Of a DNA stretch of 20,034 nt, positions 1-18,650 are shown one piece after another. Under the pieces are notes generated by a model. The model was not told the origin of the DNA. It saw only the letters and a program-made list of their open reading frames with translations, and did no database searches. The stretch is from a virus: positions 9,227 to 29,260 of the IMG/VR virus record IMGVR_UViG_3300030117_003288, one strand, 5' to 3'. Both the position numbers and the translations under genes were made by a program. Within the stretch, counting starts at the first letter, position 1, and each line of letters begins with the position of its first letter.

Positions 1-83
1 TCCTCATCGGTCATCTCATCAATGACATACTCTTTTTCATCAAGAGTAAGGACTGCAGGCTTTTCTTTTTCTTTTTTAGCCAT
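1..83 (-). CDS. Partial small protein, DUF6447-like N-terminus
   Basis: Only the first 27 codons are inside the window; the gene runs off the left edge. It starts at an ATG (complement of 81-83) preceded by a good Shine-Dalgarno sequence (AAAGGAG). The visible protein begins with a lysine/glutamate run, followed by LTLDEKEYVIDEMTDE. This 'xLxLDxKEYxxDxLTDE' pattern resembles the start of the short DUF6447-type phage proteins, which continue into a helical coiled coil. That match is from memory and rests on few residues. As the last visible gene of the late operon, just after the fibre cluster, it is probably a minor structural or fibre-associated protein. Function unknown. Confidence 0.6.
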   Translation of the reverse strand, partial: MAKKEKEKPAVLTLDEKEYVIDEMTDE

Positions 84-107
84 TATGTACTCCTTTGTTT
101 GTTATTG

Positions 108-431
108 TTAAAGTGCTTTTAAATCTTTTTCTAGTTCTTCCATATCAGCTTGTTCATCTTGTAATGTTGATATATCAGCTTTTATACGACTAATATCATT
201 AGCAAGACTATTTAAATCAAAAGACTGAACTGAATCATCTAATGCTTTACCACTATTTGAGTCAAACTGCTTTTTAACTAGCTGTAATTCATCGTGTGAT
301 TGTTCAGCTTTAGCTGCTCTTACAACATTTCCATCGTCATCTTTGACTTCAGAAACTGCTGGAGAATCAACCACTTTAGCTTTTTTTACAGACCAACTTT
401 TAGCAGATTTCATTGCTTTGTAGTTTTTCAT
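108..431 (-). CDS. Small coiled-coil protein downstream of giant fibre
   Basis: This 107-residue protein is of unknown function. Residues 1-20 are basic and contain SWSVKKA (12-18), a motif that recurs at the N-terminus of the 101-aa protein on the other side of the giant fibre gene. Residues 22-60 are polar and probably flexible. Residues 73-105 form a clear amphipathic helix with heptad-like hydrophobics (L, I, I, I, L, M, L), so a coiled coil is likely. The ATG follows the stop codon of the fibre gene with no spacer and has a Shine-Dalgarno (GAGG) inside that gene's end, so the two are translationally linked. A fibre-associated, assembly or chaperone protein is an inference from position only. 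Confidence 0.75.
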   Translation of the reverse strand: MKNYKAMKSAKSWSVKKAKVVDSPAVSEVKDDDGNVVRAAKAEQSHDELQLVKKQFDSNSGKALDDSVQSFDLNSLANDISRIKADISTLQDEQADMEELEKDLKAL

Positions 432-797
432 TTACTTTTCCTCTAATTGTTTTTTGAGTTGTTTTACTTCAGCAGATAACTCTTGAACTGCTTTGATTAA
501 TGGCATTACCATAGTGGAGTATGTTACAAGTTGTTTAGAGTTTGATTCCTCACTCCATCCACTAAATGTAGTTCCGCTTTTGTCCATTGCCTCCTTTACC
601 TCTTGGGCAATTAGACCATCCCAAACTTTATTAGCTTGAGCATCTGTCCACTCTCCAATAGTTCCATCATTTTTCTTTTTAATTTCATCAGGATATTCAG
701 CAGGGTTTACTTTTTTGAACTTGCGTACTTTTAATTCATTAATAAAATCGAGACCTAAATCACCATCTTGAATATCTCTTTTTATTCTCTTATCTGA
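432..797 (-). other. S74 chaperone domain and predicted self-cleavage point
   Basis: The codon at 795-797 encodes Ser1877, the expected nucleophile of the S74 family, in the sequence F-SDKRIK. Lys1882 is the expected partner, by analogy with phage endosialidase chaperones (Ser-Lys dyad). Cleavage before the serine would free a 121-residue C-terminal piece and leave a 1876-residue fibre subunit. The GLIAQEV box, a VTYSTMVMPLIKAVQEL helix and a terminal coiled coil (VKQLKKQLEEK) complete the family pattern. Cleavage itself is inferred from the family. Confidence 0.88.
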
Positions 798-3700
798 AAA
801 AGTAGAAAAATCAACTTGTCCTTTTATTTCATCAACGCTTGTATTGCCTATTGCAATATCATTAGCTGAGTCAGTTGTTGCCTGATACCCTATAGCTGTT
901 TGGTTATTGGCATCTATATCAAAAGCAACCCCACTTCCAAGTCCAGTATTATTTTTTCCTGTTGTGATTGTATCACCTGCTTGATACCCTATCATTGTGT
1001 TATGAGTAGCCGTTGAAGTTCCATCGCTACCACCTGCATTTTGGTCGTGAAGTGCTTCATATCCAATGGCTACATTGTAACTATCTTCTACTCCTGCTGT
1101 TAGTGCATCATTTCCTATCACCACATTTCTTTCGCCAATCGTCATAGTATTCATAGCATCAGTACCAATAGCAATATTTAGCCTTCCAGTACTCAAAGAG
1201 CCACCAGCAGTATATCCCATTAGAGTATTCCTATCTCCAGTTGTTATATCTTTTCCTGCTTCATACCCTACATATGTATTATAAGTGCCTGTTGTTGTAT
1301 CATAACCCGCATGATATCCTAGTGCAGTGTTCCCAGTAACCTCATCATTACTATCACTATTTTGACTATATAGAGCTTGATATCCTATAGCAGTTGTACC
1401 TCTACCAACATCTTCTGTGTTTAATGCTTGAACACCAACTGCCGTATTAAAGTCTCCAGTTGTCATACTAACCATAGAATTTGAACCAAGTGCCGTATTA
1501 CCAATTCCCTCTGTAAGAGAAACTCCTGCATTAGAACCTAAAAGAGTCGCATCGTATGCCGTTGTTACTGCAAGCCCAGCCTGATATCCAACAGCGGTAT
1601 TATTTGCAGTCCCACTTCTATCATGAGTTGCTAATGCTTTATAACCTATCGCAGTATTAAAATCTCCATCAGCATTTGTTTTTAATGCTTCGTATCCAAT
1701 AGCAGTGTTTTTTACACCTGTAGTCAAAGCAGTAAGTGCAGACCTACCTATTGCTACTGTTCCTGTTTGAGCGTTTGCACCAGTTGAGTCTAACGCTCCT
1801 GAACCTATTGCAATATTACCAATTAATGCTCCACTACCACCAGATAATGAACCTTTTCCAATGGCAACATTATGATCTGATGAATCATTATCAACACTTT
1901 GCATTGAACCCGAACCTATTGCGGTATTATAAGATTCAGCATTATCACCACTTGATAAAGCTAAATATCCTATTGCTACGTTATGAGCTCCACTAGTGAG
2001 TTCGTGTCCAGCTTCATACCCGATGAATACTTGACCTTGTCCATTAGCGTGATTAATAGAACCTCCAGCATCATAACCAATTAAAACTGTATCAAAGGTA
2101 TCTGTTATTGCATCTCCAGCATACGCTCCAATGGTTATATTTCTTCCACCTGTTAAAATTGATTTTAAACTATCATACCCAACAGCTACATTGTTATCTG
2201 CTTCAAAAACAGTATCAGCGGCACCACCACCCATTGCACTTTTACCAATTCCAACATTGTTATTTGAGGTGTTATTAGCAGCAGTATAATCACCGCTAGC
2301 CCCAGCTGCCGCTCCTATAAAAACATTATTATCTGCATCTGCGTGACCTAATAAAGCTCCAGTATAATACCCTAAAAAAGTATTATGAGTTCCAGTTGTG
2401 ACATTATGACCTGATTGCTTACCCACAAAAACTGAATATTGTTGATTTTCAGTAGCAGCTTGAGCAGCTTGATAACCTACCGCGACTATCCCATCTGAAT
2501 TATCATTATTAATAGCTGCACCAGATTGATGTCCAATAAGTGTGCATTCATCTTGAGTAGTAATTGACCATCCTGCCCTATACCCTATAGCCACATTGTA
2601 ATTACCAGTAGTAGTTTTATTAAGTGCTTGATAACCAATCGCTACACAGTTAAGTGGGCTATTAGAAGAACCTGAGGTTTTCATAGCTTCATTACCAATA
2701 ACCACATTTCCATATCCACCATCTACTGATTCCATAGCTTCTTTACCGATTGCTACGTTTTCTCCATTACTAGCTGCGTAGGTTAAACCTGCTTCATTTC
2801 CAATGAAAACATTAGAAACTGAATCTGTTATTGCTGTTCCTGCTGATCTACCAATACATACATTAAGCTGACCAGTTGTAAAATTTTCAAGAGCTTCCCT
2901 ACCTATTGCTACATTGTTACTACCTGTACTATATGAACCTGATGTTGTTCCACCTGTTCCTGCTAACCTACCTATAAATACATTATTATCACCACTTGCG
3001 TACACACCAGCGTTGTCGCCTATTATTACAGTTGAACTAGGATTTGTTAATTGAAGAGTAGCAGCCCCTACTGCAACATTTCTTTCTCCATCGGTTATTT
3101 TTGAACCTGAATCAGCACCGATTAATACATTTTGAGCACCACTTGTAACATCGTGCCCTGCTTGATAACCTATATAAACAGCCCAATTAGTACCGTCATG
3201 AACTAAACCTGCCTCATATCCGATAGCTACATTTTTATCGCCAGTTGTTAAACCACTTAATGCATTTGTTCCTATAGCAACATTGTACAATGCTCCATTT
3301 AAAGCGCCATCTAATGCATAGCTTCCAATTCCAATATTGTCAGTTGATACAGCAGTTGACCAAGAACCACCACCAGCATTAGCACCCATAAATATATTAT
3401 CTGAACCGCCAATAGAAGATGTCCCATCCATTGCAAAATATCCAATAGCAACATTCCTACTCAATGCCCCAGTTCCTCCAACCATTGAATTTCTACCGAC
3501 TGCTACATTATTAGCCGTACTATTATGGTTAACTCCACCCATTGAACTTTGACCAATAGCAACATTTGATGATTCTGTTCCATCCGCTGCTAACATAGCC
3601 TCCCTACCAATAACAGTATTATAACTAGCACCATTCTGAACTGGAGCAGCTTGGTAACCAATAACTGTATTCCCAGTTCCTGAAGTTTCTAATCTTAATG

Positions 3701-6425
3701 CTTGGTATCCTATAGCGGTGTTACCTGCTCCACTTGTTAAATCTTGTAATGCATCATAACCTACTGCAACAGTACCAGTTTGGTTATTATCACCAACTCC
3801 AGTTCCTATTGCATTATTTCCTATTGCAACATTCTTTGTTACTGTTCCTGTTCCACCTAATAAAGCAGAATCTCCAATAACTACATTATGGTCTGATGCG
3901 TCATTATTAATAGAACCCATTGCATTAGTGCCGATAGCAATATTGTTTGATTCACCACCATCAGCTACATCTAAAGCAAAATTTCCAATTCCAATGTTGT
4001 ATGTCCCAGTTGTTACATCGTGAAGAGACTCTCGACCAATAGCAATATTATTACTGCCACTTGTAAGACCATACAAAGCACTTGATCCTAAAGCGGTGTT
4101 ATCACTCCCTGCTCCACTTCCATTTTTTATTGTGTGATTACCTACGGCAACATTCTTTTCACCTGTATTTTGTAACCCTGAATTATATCCTATAAAAGTA
4201 TTATTACTGTCATCATCTAATGCGCTACCAGCCTGATGTCCTAAAAGCGTGTTTTGAGTCCCTGTCGTTAATGCATCACCACTCTCATATCCTATTGCTA
4301 CATTACCTGAACCCGAAGTGAGAGAGACTAACGCAGACCTACCTATTCCTATTGTGCCGTGAGTAGCAGATGTTAATGCACCTTTCATCGCCTCTCTACC
4401 AATGGCTATAGAACCATCAGAGTTTGAACTGCCTGACATCGCCTGATATCCTACAGCTACATTAGAGTTAATAGATATACTACTACCTTTTAACGCTTCA
4501 TATCCTATAGCAGTATTTGCATCTGTATCATCGTGGCTACAACTTGTCATTGCATAAGAACCAATCGCAGTATTTGCTGTTTCATTTCCAGCTGCTGATG
4601 CAAGTGCTTGATAACCAATTACTGTATTATCAGTACCATCATCAACCGAGTCCCCTGATTCGTTGCCCATAAAAGTATTTCTAGCACCAGTTGTAATTCC
4701 TAATCCTGCTCGATATCCAATACCAATATTGCTATCTCCTGTCGTAACTCCACTTAACGCCTGATAACCAAAAGCAGAATTATAATTTGCACCATCCATT
4801 GCCCCATCAAGTGTAAAATTTCCAACGCCAACATTATAATCTGATGTAGACCCAGTCCAACCACCTGCACCTGCACTTACTCCTATAAATGTATTATGAC
4901 TACAAGCTATTGCATTTGTATCACCCATCGCAAAATAACCGATTGCAGTATTATAAGCTCCAGTCGTGTTTTCTTGTAATGCTTGATAACCAATTGCAGT
5001 ATTTGATGCTCCTGATGTCAAAGCAGAAAGTGCTTTATACCCAATACCTATTGCACCATTTGCAGCATTAGTTATATCTGCTTCACCAGCATTCTTTCCA
5101 ATTATTACTGCATAATCAACATCGGTAGAAACATCCAATGCTCCAGTTCCAATAGCGATATTACTATGCCCAGTAGTAATGTTTTCTCCAGCACCTTTTC
5201 CAATTGCAACATTAGTGTAGCCAGTAGTAACATCTTTTAATGCTTCGTAACCTATAGCAGTATTGTATTCAGCGTTATTGTTAGTAGCAGTTCCACTTGA
5301 TTTCATCGAATTATGACCTATTGCAACATTTCCACCCGAACCAGCATTTATTACAGAAAGTGAATTATAACCTATTGCTATATTATATGATTGAGTTGTT
5401 AGAGCATCTCCCGCATTTGTTCCAATTAAAGTATTGTATCTACCCTCTGTAAGAGCTGAACCTACTGAATAACCAATTCCGACATTATCATCACCAGTTG
5501 TATAAGAAGTAAATGCTCCATATCCTATAGCTACCGAATCGTGTCCAGTCGTTATATATCTCATAGCCGTACTACCAATAGCTACATTATTATCTCCTTC
5601 AGTAAGTTGATGCATTGCATAGTAACCAATAGCAGTATTATCTTGTGCTAAACTCATATTACCACCACCAACTATTTGATTACCAAAAAATGTATTATAA
5701 CTTGAATTAGCAGGTGTAGCACCTATACTAGCACCAAAATATGTGTTTGATGTTCCGTTTCCACTAGAAGTATCATTATTAGATAAACTAATGCGAGAGT
5801 TGGCATCTAATTTTAATCTTATGTTTGCACCACCAGTTTCAAAAGCCATATAACTAGATGCATGGTTATAAAATATTGTACCCTGATTATGGTCTTGTTC
5901 ATCTCCAAAATGAATAACTCCTGAAGCTGCATTACCTGATATAAGCGACATTCTAACATTATCACTTGTAGCACTATTATTTTGTACAATGAATCCAGTT
6001 CCAGCTTCTCCACTAATATCGGGCATTGTTCCATCATCCATTGCAATGTGTATATTTGTATCAGGTGAGTCAGTTCCGATACCCAATCGACCTGCTGAAG
6101 TAACAGTCATTACTTCTGTTGATGTCGCTCTAAGATTTAAAAAATCTCCACTACCATCTTGTCTAATATCTAAAACAGTTCCTGATGATGATGCGTGATC
6201 TAATTCAAGTGATACAAAAGCAGAATTACCAGTTCCTGTAAAATTTTGGTTACTATATACATATAAAGCATTACCTGATGTTGAATCACCAGTAATTTTC
6301 ATATCGCCTTCAATTATTTCGTCAAAAGCAAAACTACCACCACCTTCTACTTTTAAATCACCTGTGATAGTAATGTCACCATATACTGTACCACCTCCTG
6401 TTAGTGACGGTGATCTAGTAATCAT
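432..6425 (-). CDS. Giant beta-roll tail fibre with S74 autoprocessing chaperone
   Basis: A 1997-residue fibre or host-contact protein. Residues 1-110 are beta-rich with GDITITGDLKVEG-type strands. GRLGIGTDSP (112-121) is a linker common in phage fibres, and 122-226 is a further fibre domain. Residues 227-1869 hold about 92 tandem units of mostly 17 residues, consensus NTAIGYxALxxxTTGxx, like the head repeats of YadA-type trimeric adhesins; a trimeric left-handed beta-roll shaft is the likely fold. Residues 1877-1997 form a peptidase S74 intramolecular chaperone: SDKRIK at 1877-1882, a GLIAQEV motif near 1937, and a C-terminal coiled coil from about 1967. In known members the serine cuts the chain just before itself, releasing the chaperone after trimerisation. 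No glycanase domain is evident. The ATG has an AAGGGGG ribosome site. Fibre role very likely; receptor unknown. Confidence 0.93.
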   Translation of the reverse strand: MITRSPSLTGGGTVYGDITITGDLKVEGGGSFAFDEIIEGDMKITGDSTSGNALYVYSNQNFTGTGNSAFVSLELDHASSSGTVLDIRQDGSGDFLNLRATSTEVMTVTSAGRLGIGTDSPDTNIHIAMDDGTMPDISGEAGTGFIVQNNSATSDNVRMSLISGNAASGVIHFGDEQDHNQGTIFYNHASSYMAFETGGANIRLKLDANSRISLSNNDTSSGNGTSNTYFGASIGATPANSSYNTFFGNQIVGGGNMSLAQDNTAIGYYAMHQLTEGDNNVAIGSTAMRYITTGHDSVAIGYGAFTSYTTGDDNVGIGYSVGSALTEGRYNTLIGTNAGDALTTQSYNIAIGYNSLSVINAGSGGNVAIGHNSMKSSGTATNNNAEYNTAIGYEALKDVTTGYTNVAIGKGAGENITTGHSNIAIGTGALDVSTDVDYAVIIGKNAGEADITNAANGAIGIGYKALSALTSGASNTAIGYQALQENTTGAYNTAIGYFAMGDTNAIACSHNTFIGVSAGAGGWTGSTSDYNVGVGNFTLDGAMDGANYNSAFGYQALSGVTTGDSNIGIGYRAGLGITTGARNTFMGNESGDSVDDGTDNTVIGYQALASAAGNETANTAIGSYAMTSCSHDDTDANTAIGYEALKGSSISINSNVAVGYQAMSGSSNSDGSIAIGREAMKGALTSATHGTIGIGRSALVSLTSGSGNVAIGYESGDALTTGTQNTLLGHQAGSALDDDSNNTFIGYNSGLQNTGEKNVAVGNHTIKNGSGAGSDNTALGSSALYGLTSGSNNIAIGRESLHDVTTGTYNIGIGNFALDVADGGESNNIAIGTNAMGSINNDASDHNVVIGDSALLGGTGTVTKNVAIGNNAIGTGVGDNNQTGTVAVGYDALQDLTSGAGNTAIGYQALRLETSGTGNTVIGYQAAPVQNGASYNTVIGREAMLAADGTESSNVAIGQSSMGGVNHNSTANNVAVGRNSMVGGTGALSRNVAIGYFAMDGTSSIGGSDNIFMGANAGGGSWSTAVSTDNIGIGSYALDGALNGALYNVAIGTNALSGLTTGDKNVAIGYEAGLVHDGTNWAVYIGYQAGHDVTSGAQNVLIGADSGSKITDGERNVAVGAATLQLTNPSSTVIIGDNAGVYASGDNNVFIGRLAGTGGTTSGSYSTGSNNVAIGREALENFTTGQLNVCIGRSAGTAITDSVSNVFIGNEAGLTYAASNGENVAIGKEAMESVDGGYGNVVIGNEAMKTSGSSNSPLNCVAIGYQALNKTTTGNYNVAIGYRAGWSITTQDECTLIGHQSGAAINNDNSDGIVAVGYQAAQAATENQQYSVFVGKQSGHNVTTGTHNTFLGYYTGALLGHADADNNVFIGAAAGASGDYTAANNTSNNNVGIGKSAMGGGAADTVFEADNNVAVGYDSLKSILTGGRNITIGAYAGDAITDTFDTVLIGYDAGGSINHANGQGQVFIGYEAGHELTSGAHNVAIGYLALSSGDNAESYNTAIGSGSMQSVDNDSSDHNVAIGKGSLSGGSGALIGNIAIGSGALDSTGANAQTGTVAIGRSALTALTTGVKNTAIGYEALKTNADGDFNTAIGYKALATHDRSGTANNTAVGYQAGLAVTTAYDATLLGSNAGVSLTEGIGNTALGSNSMVSMTTGDFNTAVGVQALNTEDVGRGTTAIGYQALYSQNSDSNDEVTGNTALGYHAGYDTTTGTYNTYVGYEAGKDITTGDRNTLMGYTAGGSLSTGRLNIAIGTDAMNTMTIGERNVVIGNDALTAGVEDSYNVAIGYEALHDQNAGGSDGTSTATHNTMIGYQAGDTITTGKNNTGLGSGVAFDIDANNQTAIGYQATTDSANDIAIGNTSVDEIKGQVDFSTFSDKRIKRDIQDGDLGLDFINELKVRKFKKVNPAEYPDEIKKKNDGTIGEWTDAQANKVWDGLIAQEVKEAMDKSGTTFSGWSEESNSKQLVTYSTMVMPLIKAVQELSAEVKQLKKQLEEK
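819..5747 (-). repeat. About 92 tandem ~17-codon (51-bp) units inside the fibre gene
   Basis: I parsed codons 227-1869 by hand into about 92 units, most of them 17 residues and ranging from 13 to 25. Each begins with a strand such as N(T/V)AIG and is followed by Y.AL, ..AM or ..AG and then a turn rich in T, G, D and N. The unit is clear at protein level but strongly diverged at DNA level. Two unit types mix along the array: 'YxAL' (for example NTAIGYQAL) and 'xxAG' (for example NTLIGTNAG). Length variation falls almost wholly in the turn after the second strand. The unit count has an error of a few units at the two ends, where the pattern decays. Confidence 0.95.
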
Positions 6426-6437
6426 ATAATAACCCCC

Positions 6438-6743
6438 TTAATATATAGCTATGAAAGTAAAAGCACTTTCACTAGCACTAAATTGAATAGAATCAGCTGC
6501 GAAAGGGACAATCGCTCCTGGTGAAAATAAAGCATTTATAGCTGAATTTGGTATTGTGACAGTAATGCCACTTACAAGATTTATATCTAAATTACCTGAA
6601 CCACTAGAAACAGTAACGCCCATAAGAGCTCTTGTTGTTTGGTCAAATGTAATTTTAGTTGTACCACTATTAGTGTGTATTGTTGCATTGATAATTGGAG
6701 CTCCTGCTTCTTTAACGCTCCAACTTTGTAATGATTTTGCCAT
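6438..6743 (-). CDS. Small beta-rich fibre-associated protein
   Basis: A 101-residue protein with no family I can name. The ATG at 6741-6743 is preferred because it sits 7 bases after a GGGAG ribosome site; a longer reading from a TTG at 6774-6776 would add 11 residues but has no such support. The N-terminus MAKSLQSWSVKEAG shares SWSVK(E/K)A with the 107-aa protein beyond the fibre gene. The rest is rich in T, S, V, I and G and looks like a small beta-sandwich. It lies 12 bases upstream of the giant fibre gene in the same operon, so an adaptor between tail and fibre is a reasonable guess. Confidence 0.72.
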   Translation of the reverse strand: MAKSLQSWSVKEAGAPIINATIHTNSGTTKITFDQTTRALMGVTVSSGSGNLDINLVSGITVTIPNSAINALFSPGAIVPFAADSIQFSASESAFTFIAIY

Positions 6744-6806
6744 CTTGTTCTCCCTATGCCTTACCGAGCTTGACAATTCTCATGGGCATATGCTTATTAA
6801 AATTTA

Positions 6807-8303: not shown

Positions 8304-10022
8304 TTATTGTTGTTTAGCAGCTTGAGCTGCTATTGTTTGATTAATTATTTTAGAGTTATTCTGAATATACAACGATATTTCATTTTGATACCATTTGTAA
8401 TATTTATCTGATTCTTGCATATAATATGCAGAATTTTGTGTTTTAATAGTTGCTTTTTGAGTTTCATCAGCTATTAAGTTTTGATACTTTTGTAAATCAG
8501 CTGTATATAAAGCAATTTTATTTTGATACTCTTGTACTTCTTTTTGCAATGTATTAGTATAATCTTGAACTTCTTTTGCAACATCACCTTGATATTGATT
8601 TAACTCAGCATTATACTTTTCAAGTTTAGCCGTATATTCCTGCACTTCCTTTTGAAAATTTTGTATAGCATTTTGTAATGCTATTTGAACACTTTTATCT
8701 AAATTATGTTTTTTAACACTAATATTGTTTTGCACATCTTGTACTTTTTCTTGTATATCTTTTTGTAAATTTTGTGCTTTTCTTTGAATATCTTGTTGAT
8801 ACTCAACATTTTCTTTATTAAATACATTTAATTCATTTTGAATGTCAGAACCATATTCTTGTAGTTTAATTGAATTTTCAGTTTGCCATTGAACTATTTG
8901 TTGTTGATTTCCTTGTATAATTTTATTTACTTCAGCTTGATATGAACCTATTTCAGAACCATGTTTTTGTATAACTTGAGCATCGTCTTGTGAATCTAAT
9001 TGTGCATTTTGTAATGAAATTTGTAATTGAGCTTGATATTCAGAATTTTCTTTATTAAAAACAGCCTGAGCTTCTTGCATTCTAGCACTATATTCACTTA
9101 TTTGAGCTTGTATAGCTTGAACTCTAGATGATAACATTTCACTATCTTCTTCAGTATTTATCCATGTATTAGCATCTGCAAAGTCAGGAGAACTCATAAC
9201 AGGAGGCGTAAATGTTGGAGCTGTTTGAGTAAAACTAATACTACTATTTGTTAGTACAGGAATACTAGGTATACTAGGAAAAGACCAAGTAATAGTAGGA
9301 AATGTAGTTAAACTAAATACTGGTTTATTATAAGATGGAGCTGATACTGTCATAGAAGCCATATCAGATATAGTTAATAATGGTTGAACAATATCAGAAA
9401 CACTAGCATCTGTATAAGTAAAACTAGGAGATGATGGAGAAACTGGAGAAGATACACTTATAGAAAGGTCATTCCCAAAATCAGGTGAACTAGGAGCTAC
9501 TGGAACGCTAGGTGAAGACCAAGTATGTACTTGACTTGTAGCTAATTTCCCAAACTCGCTAGAACAAGCTCTGTATATAACAGCTGTTCTTAAATCACTA
9601 TCATCATCTACATTAGAATAATTAATATATAAAGCGTGAGCCGTCACACTTGAAGTTGGATCAGGTTTTACAACTACTGTATTATCTGGTCCTATAAAAT
9701 ATTTAGGGTAAGATGCTGATGGTTCTAATAAACTTCCACTATCAGCTTCTAAAAATGCTTTTTGTTCATAAGGAGCTTCTTCAGCGGCATAAGCACCTCT
9801 TCTAACAGCAATAACATTATCAGTTTTTACTGGTAAAGTAATTGAAGTAGGACTATCATCTCCACCATGTGAACCAGCAGTTGTTTCAGAAGTTGCCCAC
9901 TTCATTAAAGTTTTTGGTATACTTGATACTACTGCTTTTTGAGCAGATATAATAAACTGAGCATTAGCATCAGTTACCCCAGTAATATTTTCTATATCAA
10001 GTTCTATATTAGTTGTTGCCAT
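8304..10022 (-). CDS. Three-part neck/fibre protein: adaptor-like head, Pro-Ser linker, long coiled coil
   Basis: A 572-residue structural protein. Residues 1-165 look like a connector domain: SITLPVKTDNVIAVRRG, then YFIGPDNTVVVKPDP and ALYINYS, then a helix TAVIYRACSSEFGKLATS. Residues 168-285 are rich in P and S with repeated 'PSxPxF/SPxSPSF' elements, probably an extended beta or polyproline stalk. Residues 290-560 are a long Q/N/E/K-rich alpha helix with recurring 'YxxxLQxYQ/EVQEYxxK' units, a near-certain coiled coil of up to about 40 nm if continuous. The gene starts after an 80-base gap holding an RNA hairpin and has no clear ribosome site. It may be a collar/whisker or side fibre anchored at the neck, or an internal head protein. 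The domain layout is seen; the role is inferred. Confidence 0.78.
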   Translation of the reverse strand: MATTNIELDIENITGVTDANAQFIISAQKAVVSSIPKTLMKWATSETTAGSHGGDDSPTSITLPVKTDNVIAVRRGAYAAEEAPYEQKAFLEADSGSLLEPSASYPKYFIGPDNTVVVKPDPTSSVTAHALYINYSNVDDDSDLRTAVIYRACSSEFGKLATSQVHTWSSPSVPVAPSSPDFGNDLSISVSSPVSPSSPSFTYTDASVSDIVQPLLTISDMASMTVSAPSYNKPVFSLTTFPTITWSFPSIPSIPVLTNSSISFTQTAPTFTPPVMSSPDFADANTWINTEEDSEMLSSRVQAIQAQISEYSARMQEAQAVFNKENSEYQAQLQISLQNAQLDSQDDAQVIQKHGSEIGSYQAEVNKIIQGNQQQIVQWQTENSIKLQEYGSDIQNELNVFNKENVEYQQDIQRKAQNLQKDIQEKVQDVQNNISVKKHNLDKSVQIALQNAIQNFQKEVQEYTAKLEKYNAELNQYQGDVAKEVQDYTNTLQKEVQEYQNKIALYTADLQKYQNLIADETQKATIKTQNSAYYMQESDKYYKWYQNEISLYIQNNSKIINQTIAAQAAKQQ

Positions 10023-10598: not shown

Positions 10599-12185
10599 TT
10601 AAGACCAGTAAGCGTGAGCTTCAGGCATTTGCCATTCCATCCCAGCTTCTGTTTGAATTAAATCAACTCTACGGTCGATACCACTATTCTCTAGAGTTTG
10701 AATACCAACATAAACAGCAGTATCACGATTCAAGCCGTTACCAACAAGAGGTCTGTATTTACAGTACTTCATGTTGACAGCTAGCATCTTGATCTTATGT
10801 CCATCAAGGTGGATATTACGTGCTACTTTCATATCACCATAAGGTGTAGAAATAACATTAATATCAACTCCAAAGGCTTTAGTTTTACCTAGTGCACCCA
10901 TTTCAGCTCTAGCAAGTGAAGAGTTACTTAGTGTACTGCCAGTTCTTGAAGCGTATGCCGTAGCCGGAATCATAGTTCCAAGATTGTTAGTAAAGTAACC
11001 ACTTAACTTATGTAACCAGTTATAAGTAGCAGTATCACAAAAGAAAATAGACGCAGATGCGTTATTATATCTTGGATCTAGGTAGTTGCTTAAATCATCT
11101 AAGAAATCGTCTTGTGTCTTTGTTGAATGATTCAACGAAAATACATTACCATAACTTGAAATGAAATCAACAGCTCCTTGAGTATACCACTCATCACCAG
11201 AATCATATTGAGCTCCAAATAGGAGACTTTGTTCGATATCCCATTTATGTTCTACCAACTTTTCTTTCCATATACGAGCCCACTCATTTGGTTCATACTT
11301 TAGCACAGTAGCACGAGTTGTGTTATCCATTGCCATTGCAGTCTTCCAAATTTGTGTACGACCGTAACCGGTTGAGAAAGGTTGATCTTTCCATGTTTCA
11401 GGGTAACCTGAACCCTGAGCGTGTGAAGTACCTACAACATAAGCTCTCTTAGGTTCTAAGTATTCAGCGATTGAAAAACCAGATACATCAATACCATCTA
11501 AAGCATTGTTGTAAGCAGAATAAGAAGAAAGTTCCATAACCGAAGTACCTGAACCTTTTCTTACTACTTTTGTTTTCAATATAGCAGCGTTAGAAACACT
11601 ACTTGTATCAACGCTAAGTACTTGAACGATAAGATAATCGTCTGCCGCAGATGCGACGCTTGCTGATGAATCATCCCAAGAACCAGCTGTAACGCTAGTG
11701 CTATAAGGGATTCTCACCATTTGTCCTGCTAAAAAGAATGCAGGTTGTGTACCTGAATCACCAGGTGATATCTCATTTGTAGATTGACCAAAAACATTCT
11801 GAATATTACCAGAAGATTTATAGTCTGAAATCATACAAAAATAATAAATATCACCAGCGTCTACATTACCATGAGTAACAGAAGCATCGCCGCCAGCAAT
11901 AGATGCCGGTGCAGATGTTCCATGATTACTTACATATGCATAACGCTTGTGAAAAGATCCACGCCTTTCTGTGAACTTAAATTCAGGATCATCAGTAGGT
12001 TTCTTGGCGAGTTTAGACACCAACCTGAAGAAAGGGTCCTGAGCTATTGAAAGTTCAGATACTCTATCACCAAAGTTGTACTTACGTCTAAGGTCACCAG
12101 TACTAAGACTAGATGAAGCTGGACTAAGACCAGAGGGAGACGAGGATTCAGTTAAACCTGATTCTAACTGAAATAAATCAGCCAT
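10599..12185 (-). CDS. Major capsid protein
   Basis: A 528-residue protein placed between scaffold and decoration genes, the canonical site of the major head subunit. Residues 1-30 are Ser-rich and probably disordered. Residues 33-90 (RRKYNFGDRVSELSIAQDPF, then TERRGSFHKRYAYV) are the conserved opening seen in large phage capsid proteins of the SU10/marine phage type. The middle contains ATVLKYEPNEWARIWKEKL and a helix DIEQSLLFGAQ. The C-terminal third (MGALGKTKAFGVDINVISTPYGDMKVARN, then VDLIQTEAGMEWQMPEAHAYW) fits the P- and A-domain strands of an HK97 fold. The ATG has an AAGGAG site. No protease gene was seen beside it, so head maturation may not use one. Confidence 0.88.
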   Translation of the reverse strand: MADLFQLESGLTESSSPSGLSPASSSLSTGDLRRKYNFGDRVSELSIAQDPFFRLVSKLAKKPTDDPEFKFTERRGSFHKRYAYVSNHGTSAPASIAGGDASVTHGNVDAGDIYYFCMISDYKSSGNIQNVFGQSTNEISPGDSGTQPAFFLAGQMVRIPYSTSVTAGSWDDSSASVASAADDYLIVQVLSVDTSSVSNAAILKTKVVRKGSGTSVMELSSYSAYNNALDGIDVSGFSIAEYLEPKRAYVVGTSHAQGSGYPETWKDQPFSTGYGRTQIWKTAMAMDNTTRATVLKYEPNEWARIWKEKLVEHKWDIEQSLLFGAQYDSGDEWYTQGAVDFISSYGNVFSLNHSTKTQDDFLDDLSNYLDPRYNNASASIFFCDTATYNWLHKLSGYFTNNLGTMIPATAYASRTGSTLSNSSLARAEMGALGKTKAFGVDINVISTPYGDMKVARNIHLDGHKIKMLAVNMKYCKYRPLVGNGLNRDTAVYVGIQTLENSGIDRRVDLIQTEAGMEWQMPEAHAYWS

Positions 12186-13147: not shown

Positions 13148-15388
13148 TCAACTAGCCTTTTCATTTGATTGGATTTCGTTTTTTATTGCCATTTTTTCTT
13201 TTTCAAATTCTGCTTTAAGCATTCCTCTTAATAATTTTTGTTGAGCTTCTGTTTCTAATACAGACTTTTTAACTTGATTACTTCCTTCACCAACTTTCAT
13301 TTTAATACCAGCTTGTACTAATTGACGCTCTAATGTTTCAATAGTTCCTTCTTTATCTTTCATAGCTTCTTCCATTGATGCAATTTGTTGTTGCATTTGA
13401 GAATACATTGATTTTCTTTCTACAATAGATTTCTTATTTCTTATATCTGTTTCACCTATCATTGCAATATCATCAATTAATCCAGCTTGAAACCATCTAA
13501 AGTATTCTTCTAATAATGCCCATCTATTTATAGGCATTGTAGCTCCTGCTATTAATCTTACATCAAACTTAGCTGATGCATAATCTTTAAATTTACCAAT
13601 TGCTTTACCAAAGTCATTATAAATAGGAACATTAATTCTAGTTTCTTTTTCTTGATCTGGTTGTTGACCAGCTTCAGGTTGAACAATTCTAAATACTTTT
13701 TCAGCTGTATAATGAGATTGAGAAAACATTTGAAAACATTTACCTAAATGTTCTAATGCTGGTTCAGCTATACTGCCCATCCATGCTTTTAATCTACGAG
13801 TTCCAAACTCATCATTAGCAAGTAATCCTCTATATGTTTCTGATTGTTGTTGAGTAAAACCCATCATAGCCGATGGAACACCTGCTATATATTCAGCATC
13901 TCCTTTGCCTTCTTGAACTACAGTAAAGAAAGCATTATTAATAGGAGCTGGCATAACAGGTGTGGGAGCATTAAAACCTTGTCTATATTTTAATAAGGCT
14001 CCTGGGGCAGACGAATAACGCTCCCATTCTTCTTCAGGGACTGAACCTTCCTCATACATCCATCTAAGATTAGATGCGAGGTTTGCATTGTGTAGCATAA
14101 TTTGATGAGCTTTATTTATTTCTTGTTGTTTCCCCATTAGTGGTACTATAGAGCTCATTGGATAAGGAGTTCCTGTGTACATATAAGAAATTGGAACTAT
14201 TGGATATTCACTAACAGGAAGAGTTCTTTCATATAAAAGTATATCATCTCCTACAGAACAAGTAACAACTATTCTATTTTCATAAAATTTTATAGCATCA
14301 ATAATTTGTTTACCCATTTCCCCATCTTTAATTATTTTATAAGATGCCTCACTCATAATTTGATTTTCAACTTTACTAGCAGCGTCTTGAGCTTGAGCCA
14401 TCAACATAGTTTTTTGCTCTTCCAATGCTTCGTTAGCCATTTTCTTAGCTCGTTCAATTTCTAACTGACCTCTTTCAGGTATCATTTCACCAGCTTGTAC
14501 AGCTTGTTGTATTTGTAATTCTTTTTCTTGTAGTGATACGTTAGTCTCTTTTTCTAAATCAGATATTTGAGCTTCAACTGCTTTCTTTATTTGATTCATT
14601 TGTTGAGGACTTGGTAATACTTTTATAAAAACATTTCTATATGGAAATTTCTTCTTACTATATGTTTCATATAATGGAAGTATATTATCATCTTCAGCTT
14701 CTAAAGTAATTCCCATTGTTATATCTTCAGGTTGTATACTTTCTGACCTATCAATATCTCTTTGTGAATACCTTGTATTTTCTATATTACCAGCAGCTCT
14801 TTTTATTTTAGCTGAATGTTCAGGGTACATATTAACTAATACAGACCTTGCAATATTTTTACGAATCTGTATAAAGGCAGCGTCTCTAAATAGAAAATCA
14901 GTAGAAGCAGGATCAACAAAAACATCATATGGGTCAACTCTGTTAAACATAACTTCACCCATTCCCCTATCAGCATCTTTATCAATATTTATCATAAAGT
15001 ATCCAATGCCTTTAGTAAGAGAATCTAATATTACTTGACTATATATTGATTTACCATTTGATAAATGCCAACAATAATCTGCAATATCAGAATGAACTTG
15101 AGCTACATCAACATCATCTCCTGTAACACCTACTGCTTTCCATCTAGGATTATTAGCAGTAACAAAGTACTTCATTATTTCTACAATAGGTGTTATTCTA
15201 TTAACAATAAACGTAGGCATACCAGACTCTTCAAGTGTCTGTTTTTCATCTTTTGTTAATTGGTCATTAAGATAAAAATCATAACCTTTTTGAGAAGTTG
15301 TTTGCCATTTTACTCGTTCAGATGTATTAGCTCTATCCCAAAGTTGTTTATTTATTTGAGCTTTTGTTTTTTTAGTTTTTCTTGCCAT
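13148..15388 (-). CDS. Portal protein (P22-like)
   Basis: A 746-residue portal, the dodecameric ring through which DNA enters and leaves the head. The N-terminal region shows the P22-type pattern: FIVNRITPIVEIMKYFVTANNPRWK (60-84), ALV-type helix SQVILDSLTKGIGYFMINID (117-136), then FNRVDPYDVFVDPAS (148-162) and a conserved 'RDAAFIQ'. The core resumes at NRIVVTCSVGDDILLYERTLPV and YPIVPISYMYTGTPYPMSSIVPLMGKQQEINKAHQIMLHNA. Residues 262-345 are an unusual charged coiled-coil insertion, and 660-735 form a long C-terminal helix rich in Q, E and K that may make a barrel extension. The ATG follows the endolysin stop directly with only a weak GGAAATAAAG site, so coupling is likely. Confidence 0.88.
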   Translation of the reverse strand: MARKTKKTKAQINKQLWDRANTSERVKWQTTSQKGYDFYLNDQLTKDEKQTLEESGMPTFIVNRITPIVEIMKYFVTANNPRWKAVGVTGDDVDVAQVHSDIADYCWHLSNGKSIYSQVILDSLTKGIGYFMINIDKDADRGMGEVMFNRVDPYDVFVDPASTDFLFRDAAFIQIRKNIARSVLVNMYPEHSAKIKRAAGNIENTRYSQRDIDRSESIQPEDITMGITLEAEDDNILPLYETYSKKKFPYRNVFIKVLPSPQQMNQIKKAVEAQISDLEKETNVSLQEKELQIQQAVQAGEMIPERGQLEIERAKKMANEALEEQKTMLMAQAQDAASKVENQIMSEASYKIIKDGEMGKQIIDAIKFYENRIVVTCSVGDDILLYERTLPVSEYPIVPISYMYTGTPYPMSSIVPLMGKQQEINKAHQIMLHNANLASNLRWMYEEGSVPEEEWERYSSAPGALLKYRQGFNAPTPVMPAPINNAFFTVVQEGKGDAEYIAGVPSAMMGFTQQQSETYRGLLANDEFGTRRLKAWMGSIAEPALEHLGKCFQMFSQSHYTAEKVFRIVQPEAGQQPDQEKETRINVPIYNDFGKAIGKFKDYASAKFDVRLIAGATMPINRWALLEEYFRWFQAGLIDDIAMIGETDIRNKKSIVERKSMYSQMQQQIASMEEAMKDKEGTIETLERQLVQAGIKMKVGEGSNQVKKSVLETEAQQKLLRGMLKAEFEKEKMAIKNEIQSNEKAS

Positions 15389-15766
15389 TTACTTTATTTC
15401 CACATGCACTAGGTCATCAAACGAATTATCTTTAGTTTCGCCATCAGAATCCCAGTCGCCGCCCCAGCGCACATTAACATTTAATTGTTTTGCTATTCCC
15501 CTTATCATTCCACCCATATAATGAAACCTATCTCTATCCTCCCAATCTATTGGATAAGGAGCGAGATCAACAGCTTTTCCTTGTATGTGTTTGCTAAACC
15601 TAGTTTTGGTTTTGCCTTCTTTTAGTAACTTTTCCTGACGTTCCTCGCTCCGTAATCCTTCAATAATTGTGACATCCATTATCTTAATAAGTTCATTAAG
15701 AACATTAACTAATTTAGTGTCAACTCCCTTTAATCTTTCTTTAGAGCGTTTTCCAAATCTAGGCAT
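15389..15766 (-). CDS. Endolysin, M15 L-alanyl-D-glutamate peptidase type
   Basis: A 125-residue VanY/M15 metallopeptidase that would cut the peptide stems of peptidoglycan to lyse the host. The zinc motif SKHIQGKAVDLAPYP places ligands His60 and Asp67, and FDDLVHVEI supplies the third ligand His121, with Asp118 three residues before it as in the catalytic Asp of phage T5 endolysin (D-x-x-H). The length and single-domain build fit the T5 type. There is no signal peptide and no wall-binding domain, so a holin should be needed; none is obvious in this operon. The start overlaps the previous stop by one base (TAATG). Its position between terminase and portal is unusual for a lysis gene. Confidence 0.9.
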   Translation of the reverse strand: MPRFGKRSKERLKGVDTKLVNVLNELIKIMDVTIIEGLRSEERQEKLLKEGKTKTRFSKHIQGKAVDLAPYPIDWEDRDRFHYMGGMIRGIAKQLNVNVRWGGDWDSDGETKDNSFDDLVHVEIK

Positions 15767-16239: not shown

Positions 16240-17811
16240 TTATGCTACTATCCAACTTTTGGCTTTCCTTTTTTGTTTATACCATGTTTTATCTTTTTCA
16301 TTTCTTCTTAAATCTGCAGGGAATGAATGCAAATTAGCGTAAAAAAGAGCTTCTATGGTATCATCATGTGCCATTCTCGGTCCAAAAGTAATGATTTCGT
16401 TGCTTAAATCAAACATATTTTCCCTAATATGTATTGTTCCCATGCTAAAACGACCAGAAAGTCCACTATAAATGCGATTTATCTTCTGTCTTCCGCCTGG
16501 TTTTTCAGGTATAACAGCAATATCGAACTTATTTGTACGTCTTCTTTCTTCATTAAGTGCTTGAAATACACTTCGATTCATAGCTACATCTTCAACAGTA
16601 GATGATATACAATGATATTTTTGATGCATTTCTAATATATAATCAACTACACCTTTACGATCCATAATTTCATTATCAGTATTTTTTGCACCAATAGTCG
16701 GTATACTTCTATGCCTTTCGTATTCTAATACATAGAGATTATTTTCTGTATCAATCGCGATAGCCATAATAACAGAAAAGTCAGACTCTTTAGTATCAAT
16801 GTCAGTAGCAGGGTCACAACCAACAAAACAATTGACTGGAAACCTTTCATTGTTAATAGAAAGATAATTTTGATTTTCTTCAGCATCGTAATCATAATAT
16901 CCTTTCCAGTACTTAATGTGGTCTCTAGTCCATAAGGCATCTTCAGCACTTTGTACTTCCATCATATATTCTTGATAGAACTTTGAAGGTTGACCTGAAT
17001 CTCTGTAGAATTTTTTCTTTTCTTCTAATTTTGTTGTAGGAAACCAAGATGCCCATAATGGTTCTCCTGCTGGTGTTACAGCTTTGTAGGTAATTAATTT
17101 CCAAGCAAATTCTTCATTACTACTTTTAGCACGCTCGTGGTTAATAAGAAGATTGTTAATAAAAGAATCAAAGTGAACTGGAGTACCATTAACGCGAAGC
17201 CTCCCAGTATGAGGTTCAATTGCAGGATATACAACGGCGGTAACAAGATTGGCATTTTTATCTCTAGCCTCTCTTGTAATTGTGTTAGCCTCGTGTTCAA
17301 AATCATCAAGTACGATAAGGTCATATCGTTTATGGAGTTTAGCTCCTCCTCTGATCCCAGCGACATTACTCTTGGAAATGAGTTTACATCCATTTGATAA
17401 TTCTATATCTTCTTCTGTCCACTTAGTTCCTTTTGTTCTTCCAAAATAATAAATGAATCTATCATTAAACTCAAGATGATGTTTGATATAATCCATATTA
17501 CCGACAGATAATTTTTGTGTTGCCGATACCCAAGCATAAAACAACATATCATCTTTTGGACAAAAAACAAAGTCTTTTAGTATTGATGCTTTTGTTAATA
17601 CAGTTTTTCCATGACCTCGTGGTAAGATGATAGCAAGTTGTTTACATTTTTTATCATCAATAGCATCAGCTACTTCATAATGAAATGGAGGAGTTTCACT
17701 ACGAGTAAAGTCATCAGGTAAGAATAATTTACCAAATGATATTAAGTCTTTACTTGCTAGATGAAATACTTCTTCTGCTTGAGATACGTTTCTTGAATTT
17801 ATATTTGCCAT
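16240..17811 (-). CDS. terL: Terminase large subunit
   Basis: A 523-residue DNA-packaging motor. The N-terminal ATPase shows Walker A PRGHGKT (64-70), Walker B LIVLDD with the following Glu (165-172), and coupling motif VNGTPVHFDS (208-217). The C-terminal RNase H-like nuclease shows its acidic residues in order: Asp333 in FVGCDPATD, the pair Glu407-Asp408 in STVEDVAMNRS, and Asp483-Asp484 in MAHDDTIEAL. The length is normal for the family. It uses ATP to drive DNA through the portal and cuts concatemers. The start codon lies 53 bases after the small subunit gene with little ribosome-site support in an AT-rich leader (ATATTTAATG), which may keep expression low. Confidence 0.95.
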   Translation of the reverse strand: MANINSRNVSQAEEVFHLASKDLISFGKLFLPDDFTRSETPPFHYEVADAIDDKKCKQLAIILPRGHGKTVLTKASILKDFVFCPKDDMLFYAWVSATQKLSVGNMDYIKHHLEFNDRFIYYFGRTKGTKWTEEDIELSNGCKLISKSNVAGIRGGAKLHKRYDLIVLDDFEHEANTITREARDKNANLVTAVVYPAIEPHTGRLRVNGTPVHFDSFINNLLINHERAKSSNEEFAWKLITYKAVTPAGEPLWASWFPTTKLEEKKKFYRDSGQPSKFYQEYMMEVQSAEDALWTRDHIKYWKGYYDYDAEENQNYLSINNERFPVNCFVGCDPATDIDTKESDFSVIMAIAIDTENNLYVLEYERHRSIPTIGAKNTDNEIMDRKGVVDYILEMHQKYHCISSTVEDVAMNRSVFQALNEERRRTNKFDIAVIPEKPGGRQKINRIYSGLSGRFSMGTIHIRENMFDLSNEIITFGPRMAHDDTIEALFYANLHSFPADLRRNEKDKTWYKQKRKAKSWIVA

Positions 17812-17864: not shown

Positions 17865-18650
17865 TTAATCTTCACTACCATTTGATATTTCTTTTGGTTT
17901 AACAGATTCTATTTGTTCAGGGGAAAAGCCTTGAAACATTCCGATTACTCCTACATCCCTTTGTTTAACTGAGTTTACTGATGTCCCAATTATCTTCCCT
18001 AGTTCTTTTGTAGATTGTAGTATAATATTATCATCCTCACTATTATCCGCTAAACATTTGAGTCTGTCTAATATATACTTATGGTCTATACCAAGTTCTT
18101 TGGCAACATCTAATACTCCCTTTTCTATGTCTGTCATAACTCTCTCCTGTTTTAGTAATACCAATGCTTTCTTGCGAGCTTTATCTTCTGACGTAGCTTT
18201 AAAAGCATCCATGTAAGCTTTAACAGGACCCATTCCAGAAACAACATTGGTTGTAAAAATTTTTTCATTATTTGTTAATTTTTTTCTTTTCTTTACTTGT
18301 TTGTTTGTATTCTTAATTGTCTTAGAGAATGTATATCTATTTGGATGTTGTTCAAAGTCTGTATCCATAAAAGTTTTCTCATTATTAACGAATGTCCCTA
18401 CAACAGTCCTCACATAATTTTTTGCCCATTTATAATTTTTTCTATCATTAGGATGATTTAATGTACCTACTTTTAGTAATTGTACAATACGATTATCATC
18501 ACTAAATACCCAATCACCTTGTTTTCCATCACGCCAATTTGCTTTTACTTCAGGACTACTCATCATTTTTGAATGAAAGTATTCTTGAAATTCTTTTGCA
18601 TTTTCAAATACATAATGACGTTCTTTTTTTATTACTTTATACTCAGACAT
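17865..18650 (-). CDS. terS: Terminase small subunit with long N-terminal extension
   Basis: A 261-residue protein directly upstream of terL. Residues 124-175 (KLTNNEKIFTTNVVSGMG, PVKAYMDAF, ARKKALVLLKQERVMTDI) are the helix-turn-helix DNA-recognition pattern of small terminases. Residues 180-223 (AKELGIDHKYILDRLKCLAD, then STKELGKIIGT) fit the central oligomerisation helices. Residues 1-120 are an extra domain with a compact pattern QGDWVFSDDNRIVQLLKVGTLN and NYVRTVVGTFVNN, followed by a basic linker (KQVKKRKK). This is much longer than the usual 150-180 residues. The ATG overlaps the stop of the 67-aa gene by one base (TAATG). It would select the packaging site and load the large subunit. 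Confidence 0.82.
   Translation of the reverse strand: MSEYKVIKKERHYVFENAKEFQEYFHSKMMSSPEVKANWRDGKQGDWVFSDDNRIVQLLKVGTLNHPNDRKNYKWAKNYVRTVVGTFVNNEKTFMDTDFEQHPNRYTFSKTIKNTNKQVKKRKKLTNNEKIFTTNVVSGMGPVKAYMDAFKATSEDKARKKALVLLKQERVMTDIEKGVLDVAKELGIDHKYILDRLKCLADNSEDDNIILQSTKELGKIIGTSVNSVKQRDVGVIGMFQGFSPEQIESVKPKEISNGSED

Follow-up and report, generated by a model that had tools for sequence, protein, structure and literature searches.

Among the described counterparts of the shaft analyzed here are the beta-roll heads of the trimeric autotransporter adhesins YadA, UspA1, BpaC and CbpF, which carry an invariant glycine in each layer. In BpaC, with 42 layers in one head, this glycine is completely conserved and a rise of 4.8 Å per layer has been measured (PMC9543794), and CbpF binds its receptor via a loop protruding from the beta-roll (PMC13432900). 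The MAT fibres of Bdellovibrio form a second point of comparison, as these long trimeric fibres have self-cleaving S74 ends and an AlphaFold model of ~55 nm, although they differ from the present fibre in their shaft, in their beta-helix tip and in being cellular rather than of phage origin (PMC10769870). The serine and lysine of S74 domains form a dyad, with cleavage taking place after folding and trimerisation (PMC3742443, PMC10769870); the domain has also been described as a folding sensor (PMC3742443), and the substitution S782A stops cleavage of an S74 fibre (PMC10769870).

YadA domains have been mentioned in marine phages (PMC3909814, PMC7029224, PMC9146016). ORF108 of cyanophage S-TIM4 (L362, 35210-41920), a long marine virion fibre, is labelled 'YadA domain-containing structural protein'; considered as a precedent for the present repeat, it was ruled out with 1 unit in 2,236 residues, so this label spans unlike proteins. 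Neither the fibre type nor S74 maturation is new, and marine phages were already known to carry YadA-like domains; the new findings here are the extreme length of the array, the series of lengths found at a single locus and the conservation of the flanking genes. The first-pass annotation of this DNA lacked the C-terminal S74 domain, the conservation of the flanking genes and the strong variation in length among relatives.

The window, the whole stretch of 20,034 nucleotides that was analyzed, corresponds to positions 9227-29260 of the 29,728-bp virus record IMGVR_UViG_3300030117_003288, and nearly all of its genes lie on the minus strand. The fibre gene (432-6425, minus strand) is a single open frame that starts with ATG and encodes 1,997 amino acids, with a computed mass of ~202 kDa, or ~188 kDa with the predicted self-cleavage. 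It most likely encodes a host-attachment fibre of a phage, one of the longest examples of a fibre type that is found widely. Its initial description as a virion fibre is borne out by its position in a structural operon, by a Peptidase_S74 match above the cut-off and by matches to PHROG 4636 (tail spike; E 1.8e-186 in 16 stretches, driven partly by the repeat) and to PHROG 6002 and 23837 (virion structural). A plus-strand reading of 819-5747 was ruled out by the many stops found there; these positions encode residues 227-1869 of the minus-strand protein. The N-terminal region (residues 1-226; 5748-6425, minus strand) carries the motifs GGTVxGDITITGDLKVEGGGSF and LGIGTDSP, with G16, G22, D23, V26 and G28 invariant in 13 aligned sequences. 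The N-terminal motif is common to the fibre genes of relatives, and this region is the probable virion-attachment end, through which the fibre would dock.

The repeat shaft (residues 227-1857; 855-5747, minus strand) is built from units of ~17 residues with the consensus NVAIGYQALxxLTTGxx. Placing units by a position-specific scan with dynamic programming gave 91 of them between residue 227 and about residue 1857, or 90 at a stricter penalty, in agreement with the first-pass figures of about 92 units over some 1,640 residues; one degenerate half-turn (DIAIGNTSVDEIKG) is present in addition. The residue-shuffled protein accommodated a mean of 7.1 unit placements (maximum 12), and the autocorrelation of the native protein has its top peak at lag 17, followed by lag 34. 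Of the 90 spacings, 48 are of 17 residues, with the remainder at 18 (14), 19 (14), 16 (4), 20 (4), 22 (3), 23 (2) and 25 (1). The glycine at unit position 5 is invariant (91/91), and asparagine at position 1 (73/91), alanine at position 8 (68/91) and isoleucine at position 4 (66/91) complete the conserved columns, whereas residues vary at columns 7 and 10-12 and at the two final columns. In the unit list, the length of positions ~1-9 is fixed and variation is confined to the turn that follows; these turns are diverse, and 38 of the 91 units exceed 17 residues. The six longest units, at residues 366-387, 1148-1170 (23 residues; 2916-2984, minus strand), 1367-1389 and 1390-1411 (adjoining, 23 + 22 residues; 2193-2327, minus strand), 1677-1698 and 1784-1808 (the longest, 25 residues; 1002-1076, minus strand), are candidate receptor-contacting loops that may be exposed on the shaft surface. 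The array is acidic (132 acidic vs 47 basic residues, net charge ~-85, pI 4.3).

An AlphaFold model of residues 1643-1997, covering the last units and the S74 domain (pLDDT 84.6), places a strand every 17 residues, consistent with the regular coil of one turn per unit that had been proposed. Among PDB entries it aligns best to the beta-roll heads of trimeric adhesins, namely UspA1 (Z 17.0, 200 aligned, 4.8 Å), CbpF (Z 16.9, 178 aligned, 2.5 Å), BpaC (Z 14.1, 195 aligned, 4.2 Å, 26% identity) and YadA (Z 13.8, 158 aligned, 3.0 Å), and a CsgA chain scores Z 14.3. In plain Foldseek searches the PDB rows have weak E-values, the best being 1.4e-3 (CbpF), and 102 predicted viral proteins match the model at E < 0.001, many of them phage S74 proteins. 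A resemblance to YadA heads was part of the first reading of this repeat; it holds for the fold matches of this model and the invariant glycine and does not extend to Pfam YadA_head, for which the best score of 19.3 bits lies below the cut-off of 25. PDB sequence searches with the whole fibre protein and with one array piece returned no matches, and a sequence profile of the array alone found no adhesin in the PDB, only weak hexapeptide-repeat matches. Relative to the autotransporter heads, the present layers are longer (17 vs 14-15 residues) and far more numerous, and the protein terminates in an S74 domain in place of a membrane anchor, no C-terminal anchor barrel being found by Pfam.

The hexapeptide-repeat matches are among the observations that would fit a different coil, either a right-handed beta-helix or a monomeric left-handed helix, rather than a trimeric beta-roll. 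The same C-terminal model also aligns to left-handed acyltransferases (Z 12-13), and the array part of a second model, of residues 1-420 (N-terminus and first units), aligns to right-handed beta-helices (Z 11-15). This second model is of low confidence (mean pLDDT 65, with a poor N-terminus), and its fold matches serve as a caution only; the disagreement between the two monomer models nevertheless means that they leave handedness unfixed. We consider either of these other coils unlikely, given that adhesin heads rank first for the C-terminal model, with about 20-26% identity versus 3-15% for nearly all enzyme rows, and that trimeric proteins with S74 domains have been described (PMC3742443, PMC10769870). 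A left-handed roll is favoured over a right-handed helix because the model on which it rests is the more confident, the identity to adhesins is higher and the invariant glycine fits the known rule. The shaft is probably a homotrimer built as in the bacterial trimeric adhesin heads, in which ~91 stacked beta-roll turns would form an acidic rod. At the 4.8 Å per layer of BpaC (PMC9543794), this rod would be ~44 nm long, the length first estimated. The accompanying notion of thousands of exposed turn positions was overstated, as 91 units in each of 3 chains amount to 273 layers per trimer.

The C-terminal domain (residues 1877-1997; 435-797, minus strand) matches Peptidase_S74 (PF13884) in Pfam at residues 1877-1951, with 25.5 bits against a cut-off of 22, and ends in a C-terminal helix. 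It opens with SDKRIK at residues 1877-1882, which contains the dyad residues Ser1877 and Lys1882; the S, D, R and K of SDxRxK are invariant in 33 aligned sequences, which were chosen by motif, such that this invariance is partly built in. By Foldseek, the model matches the ICA domain of MyRF (7dc3) with probability 1.00, and a profile of these 33 relatives matches the solved chaperones 8jov (1.2e-10), 7dc3 (2.8e-9) and 6f45 (4.8e-9), as well as 3gud. The domain would bring the chains together, sense correct folding and then cut itself off, with the cut predicted from the S74 dyad to fall between Phe1876 and Ser1877. Only ~19 residues separate the roll from this site, and a separate tip domain is absent between the two. 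The degenerate final half-turn and link (residues 1858-1876; 798-854, minus strand) would accordingly be the mature C-terminal tip, the end of the roll remaining once the S74 domain has been removed.

The fibre gene sits inside a phage structural operon that includes genes for an SU10-type capsid protein (10599-12185), a P22-type portal (13148-15388), an M15 peptidase (15389-15766), a large terminase (16240-17811; PHROG 38) and a small-terminase-like protein (17865-18650; PHROG 2606, with Pfam Terminase_2 below cut-off). The capsid-to-fibre distance of only about 4 kb, together with the filing of PHROG 6002 and 23837 under head and packaging, could suggest that the protein decorates the head or coats the virion surface instead of forming a tail fibre. 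PHROG 4636, by contrast, is a tail spike family, and related isolates label the protein a tail fibre beside tail genes (labels that are themselves annotation), and a role at the head seems to us quite improbable. Beyond the window, the upstream part of the record (L003) contains a second large fibre-like ORF (2-3271, minus strand; PHROG 33450, tail fibre), whose length of at least 1,090 aa is a lower bound set by the contig edge. Adjacent to the capsid genes, a 572-aa protein (8304-10022, minus strand), which matches no family above a cut-off, is rich in Pro and Ser over its first half and resembles a long coiled coil over its second.

Two small proteins flank the fibre gene on the same strand, one upstream (6438-6776, minus strand; start at or near MAKSLQSWSVKEAGAP) and one downstream (108-431, minus strand; MKNYKAMKSAKSWSVKKAK). 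They have a common N-terminal SWSVK motif and little else alike, and SWSVK is possibly a common docking peptide. The upstream type is also found 5' of the fibre genes in L151, L192, L205 and L210, and the downstream type directly 3' of those in L228, L232, L233 and L242.

In contigs with 59-79% identity to the present phage in the capsid protein, fibre-sized ORFs lie 2.3-5.0 kb downstream of the capsid gene, and the syntenic ORFs contain 12, 23, 21, 19, 51, 1, 0, 37 and 19 units. In L225 (IMGVR_UViG_3300030098_002838) the gene order and the S74 domain are kept, the N-terminal part is up to 76% identical, and the last units are collinear with the last units of the present array at 48% identity, yet the protein has only 1,026 aa and 19 to about 22 units, with an additional non-array module ahead of the roll. 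Elsewhere the S74 domain is replaced on the shaft by other tips, a C1q domain in L151 (15221-18244) and other domains in L175 (16551-21179), L168 (13908-17033) and L196 (14987-18724). Given this length series and the swapped tips at syntenic loci, shaft length evolves independently of the ends. These relatives describe a modular fibre in abundant environmental phages, comprised of a shared N-terminus, an elastic shaft and an interchangeable S74, C1q or other tip. Together with the present array they also constitute a natural length series, ranging from 0 up to 90 units at a single locus, against which a growth of 0.48 nm per unit and a possible influence of length or loop content on host range could be tested.

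Taken as a whole, the protein is quite likely a long phage attachment fibre with a docking N-terminus, a trimeric roll and an S74 domain that removes itself, leaving host contact to the roll or its end. Contact would most likely be made by the roll turns, by the longer inserted turns or by the last turns, with the roll also serving as a spacer, because no separate tip domain is left after the cut. How much of the binding falls to the roll itself can be read in two ways. The roll may be a passive spacer that binds nothing, with adhesion provided by its last turns or by a second fibre, such as the second fibre-like ORF of this genome; the relatives in which C1q-type or other tips are mounted on the same kind of shaft make the roll look like a spacer, as does its freely varying length. 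Set against this are the lack of a tip domain here after S74 removal and the diversity of the unit turns, more than a third of which are lengthened, and we regard a purely passive roll as conceivable yet doubtful. Our more specific proposal, that the 91-layer roll left after S74 removal is both shaft and adhesive surface, presenting spaced loops multivalently, with its length tuned by block swaps between constant ends, is offered tentatively and faces the same tip-bearing relatives.

TRF found no tandem array at the DNA level in the fibre gene, identity across units averages 46% (adjacent units, mean 48%, maximum 63%), and all four glycine codons encode the invariant glycine. The absence of a TRF array, the low identity of adjacent units and the mixed glycine codons therefore rule out a recent tandem expansion, whether by slippage or as an assembly artefact; judged from their sequences, the array copies are old. 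Two pairs of collinear blocks were found within the array. Block A comprises units 33-40 (3621-4049, minus strand) and units 70-77 (1602-2033, minus strand), with 48% amino acid and 61% DNA identity and a run score of 12.1, and Block B comprises units 16-20 (4680-4952, minus strand) and units 44-48 (3183-3455, minus strand), with 53% amino acid and 64% DNA identity and a run score of 10.8. In 300 shuffles of unit order the 95th percentile of the run score was 8.9 and the largest value 13.4, and the blocks are suggestive, if not overwhelming, evidence that the array grew partly by block duplication. Between the duplicated blocks, about half of the conserved residues show synonymous differences, which, with the divergent DNA copies, points to long purifying selection on the protein. 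In the favoured reading of an attachment fibre, array length would shift by block duplication, loss and recombination, setting the length and the surface of the fibre.

Among 50,697 phage records, tblastn found the fibre in 65 and one array piece in 77, with matches in Bacillus SPO1-like, Synechococcus, Prochlorococcus, Pelagibacter, Roseobacter, Escherichia and other phages, and a DNA-level search of the phage collection gave no match. HTVC111P gp52 and HTVC112P gp48 (Pelagibacter), CRP-7 gp48 (Roseobacter), P-SSM2 PSSM2_298 (Prochlorococcus), Venkman gp55 (Methylophilales) and SPO1 gp2.52 (Bacillus, PHROG 4636) all combine NTAIGYQAL-type 17-residue units with an S74 SDxRxK end, and their annotations read tail fibre, spike or structural protein. 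These six differ from the present fibre in having roughly 12-30 units instead of 90-91, and their identity to it is only about 26-39%.

A wider survey of IMG/VR and bacterial genomes used a degenerate DNA pattern for NTAIGYQA, and its many matches in both collections indicate that the 17-residue repeat is common in both, among the matches listed. Pelagiphages, roseophages, cyanophages and SPO1-like phages carry the repeat, as do many bacterial genomes, and S74 usually accompanies it. The array lengths come from these motif-chosen matches and are not a census: 79 complete arrays of at least 8 units, the present one included, have a median of 16 and a 95th percentile of 59 units, with the present array as the maximum; 99 other complete viral ORFs among the matches listed, with later loci added, have a median of 19 and a maximum of 87; and 63 complete bacterial ORFs among the matches listed reach 69. 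The view that so long an array is rare holds for its length but is tempered by the existence of arrays of 70-87 units and by how common the fibre type is. Such arrays, in L005 (marine virus AG-345-L05) and in the IMG/VR contigs L030, L086 and L042, have 87, 78, 75 and 70 units in all, and none of the four matches the N-terminus of the present fibre. In L005, the units of a 2,491-aa ORF without SDxRxK fall in separate runs, the longest of 28. The present array is the upper mark for beta-roll shaft length in the sample examined. In the bacterial genomes L245-L361, many of them Bacteroidota, 17-residue arrays are likewise present, often together with S74.
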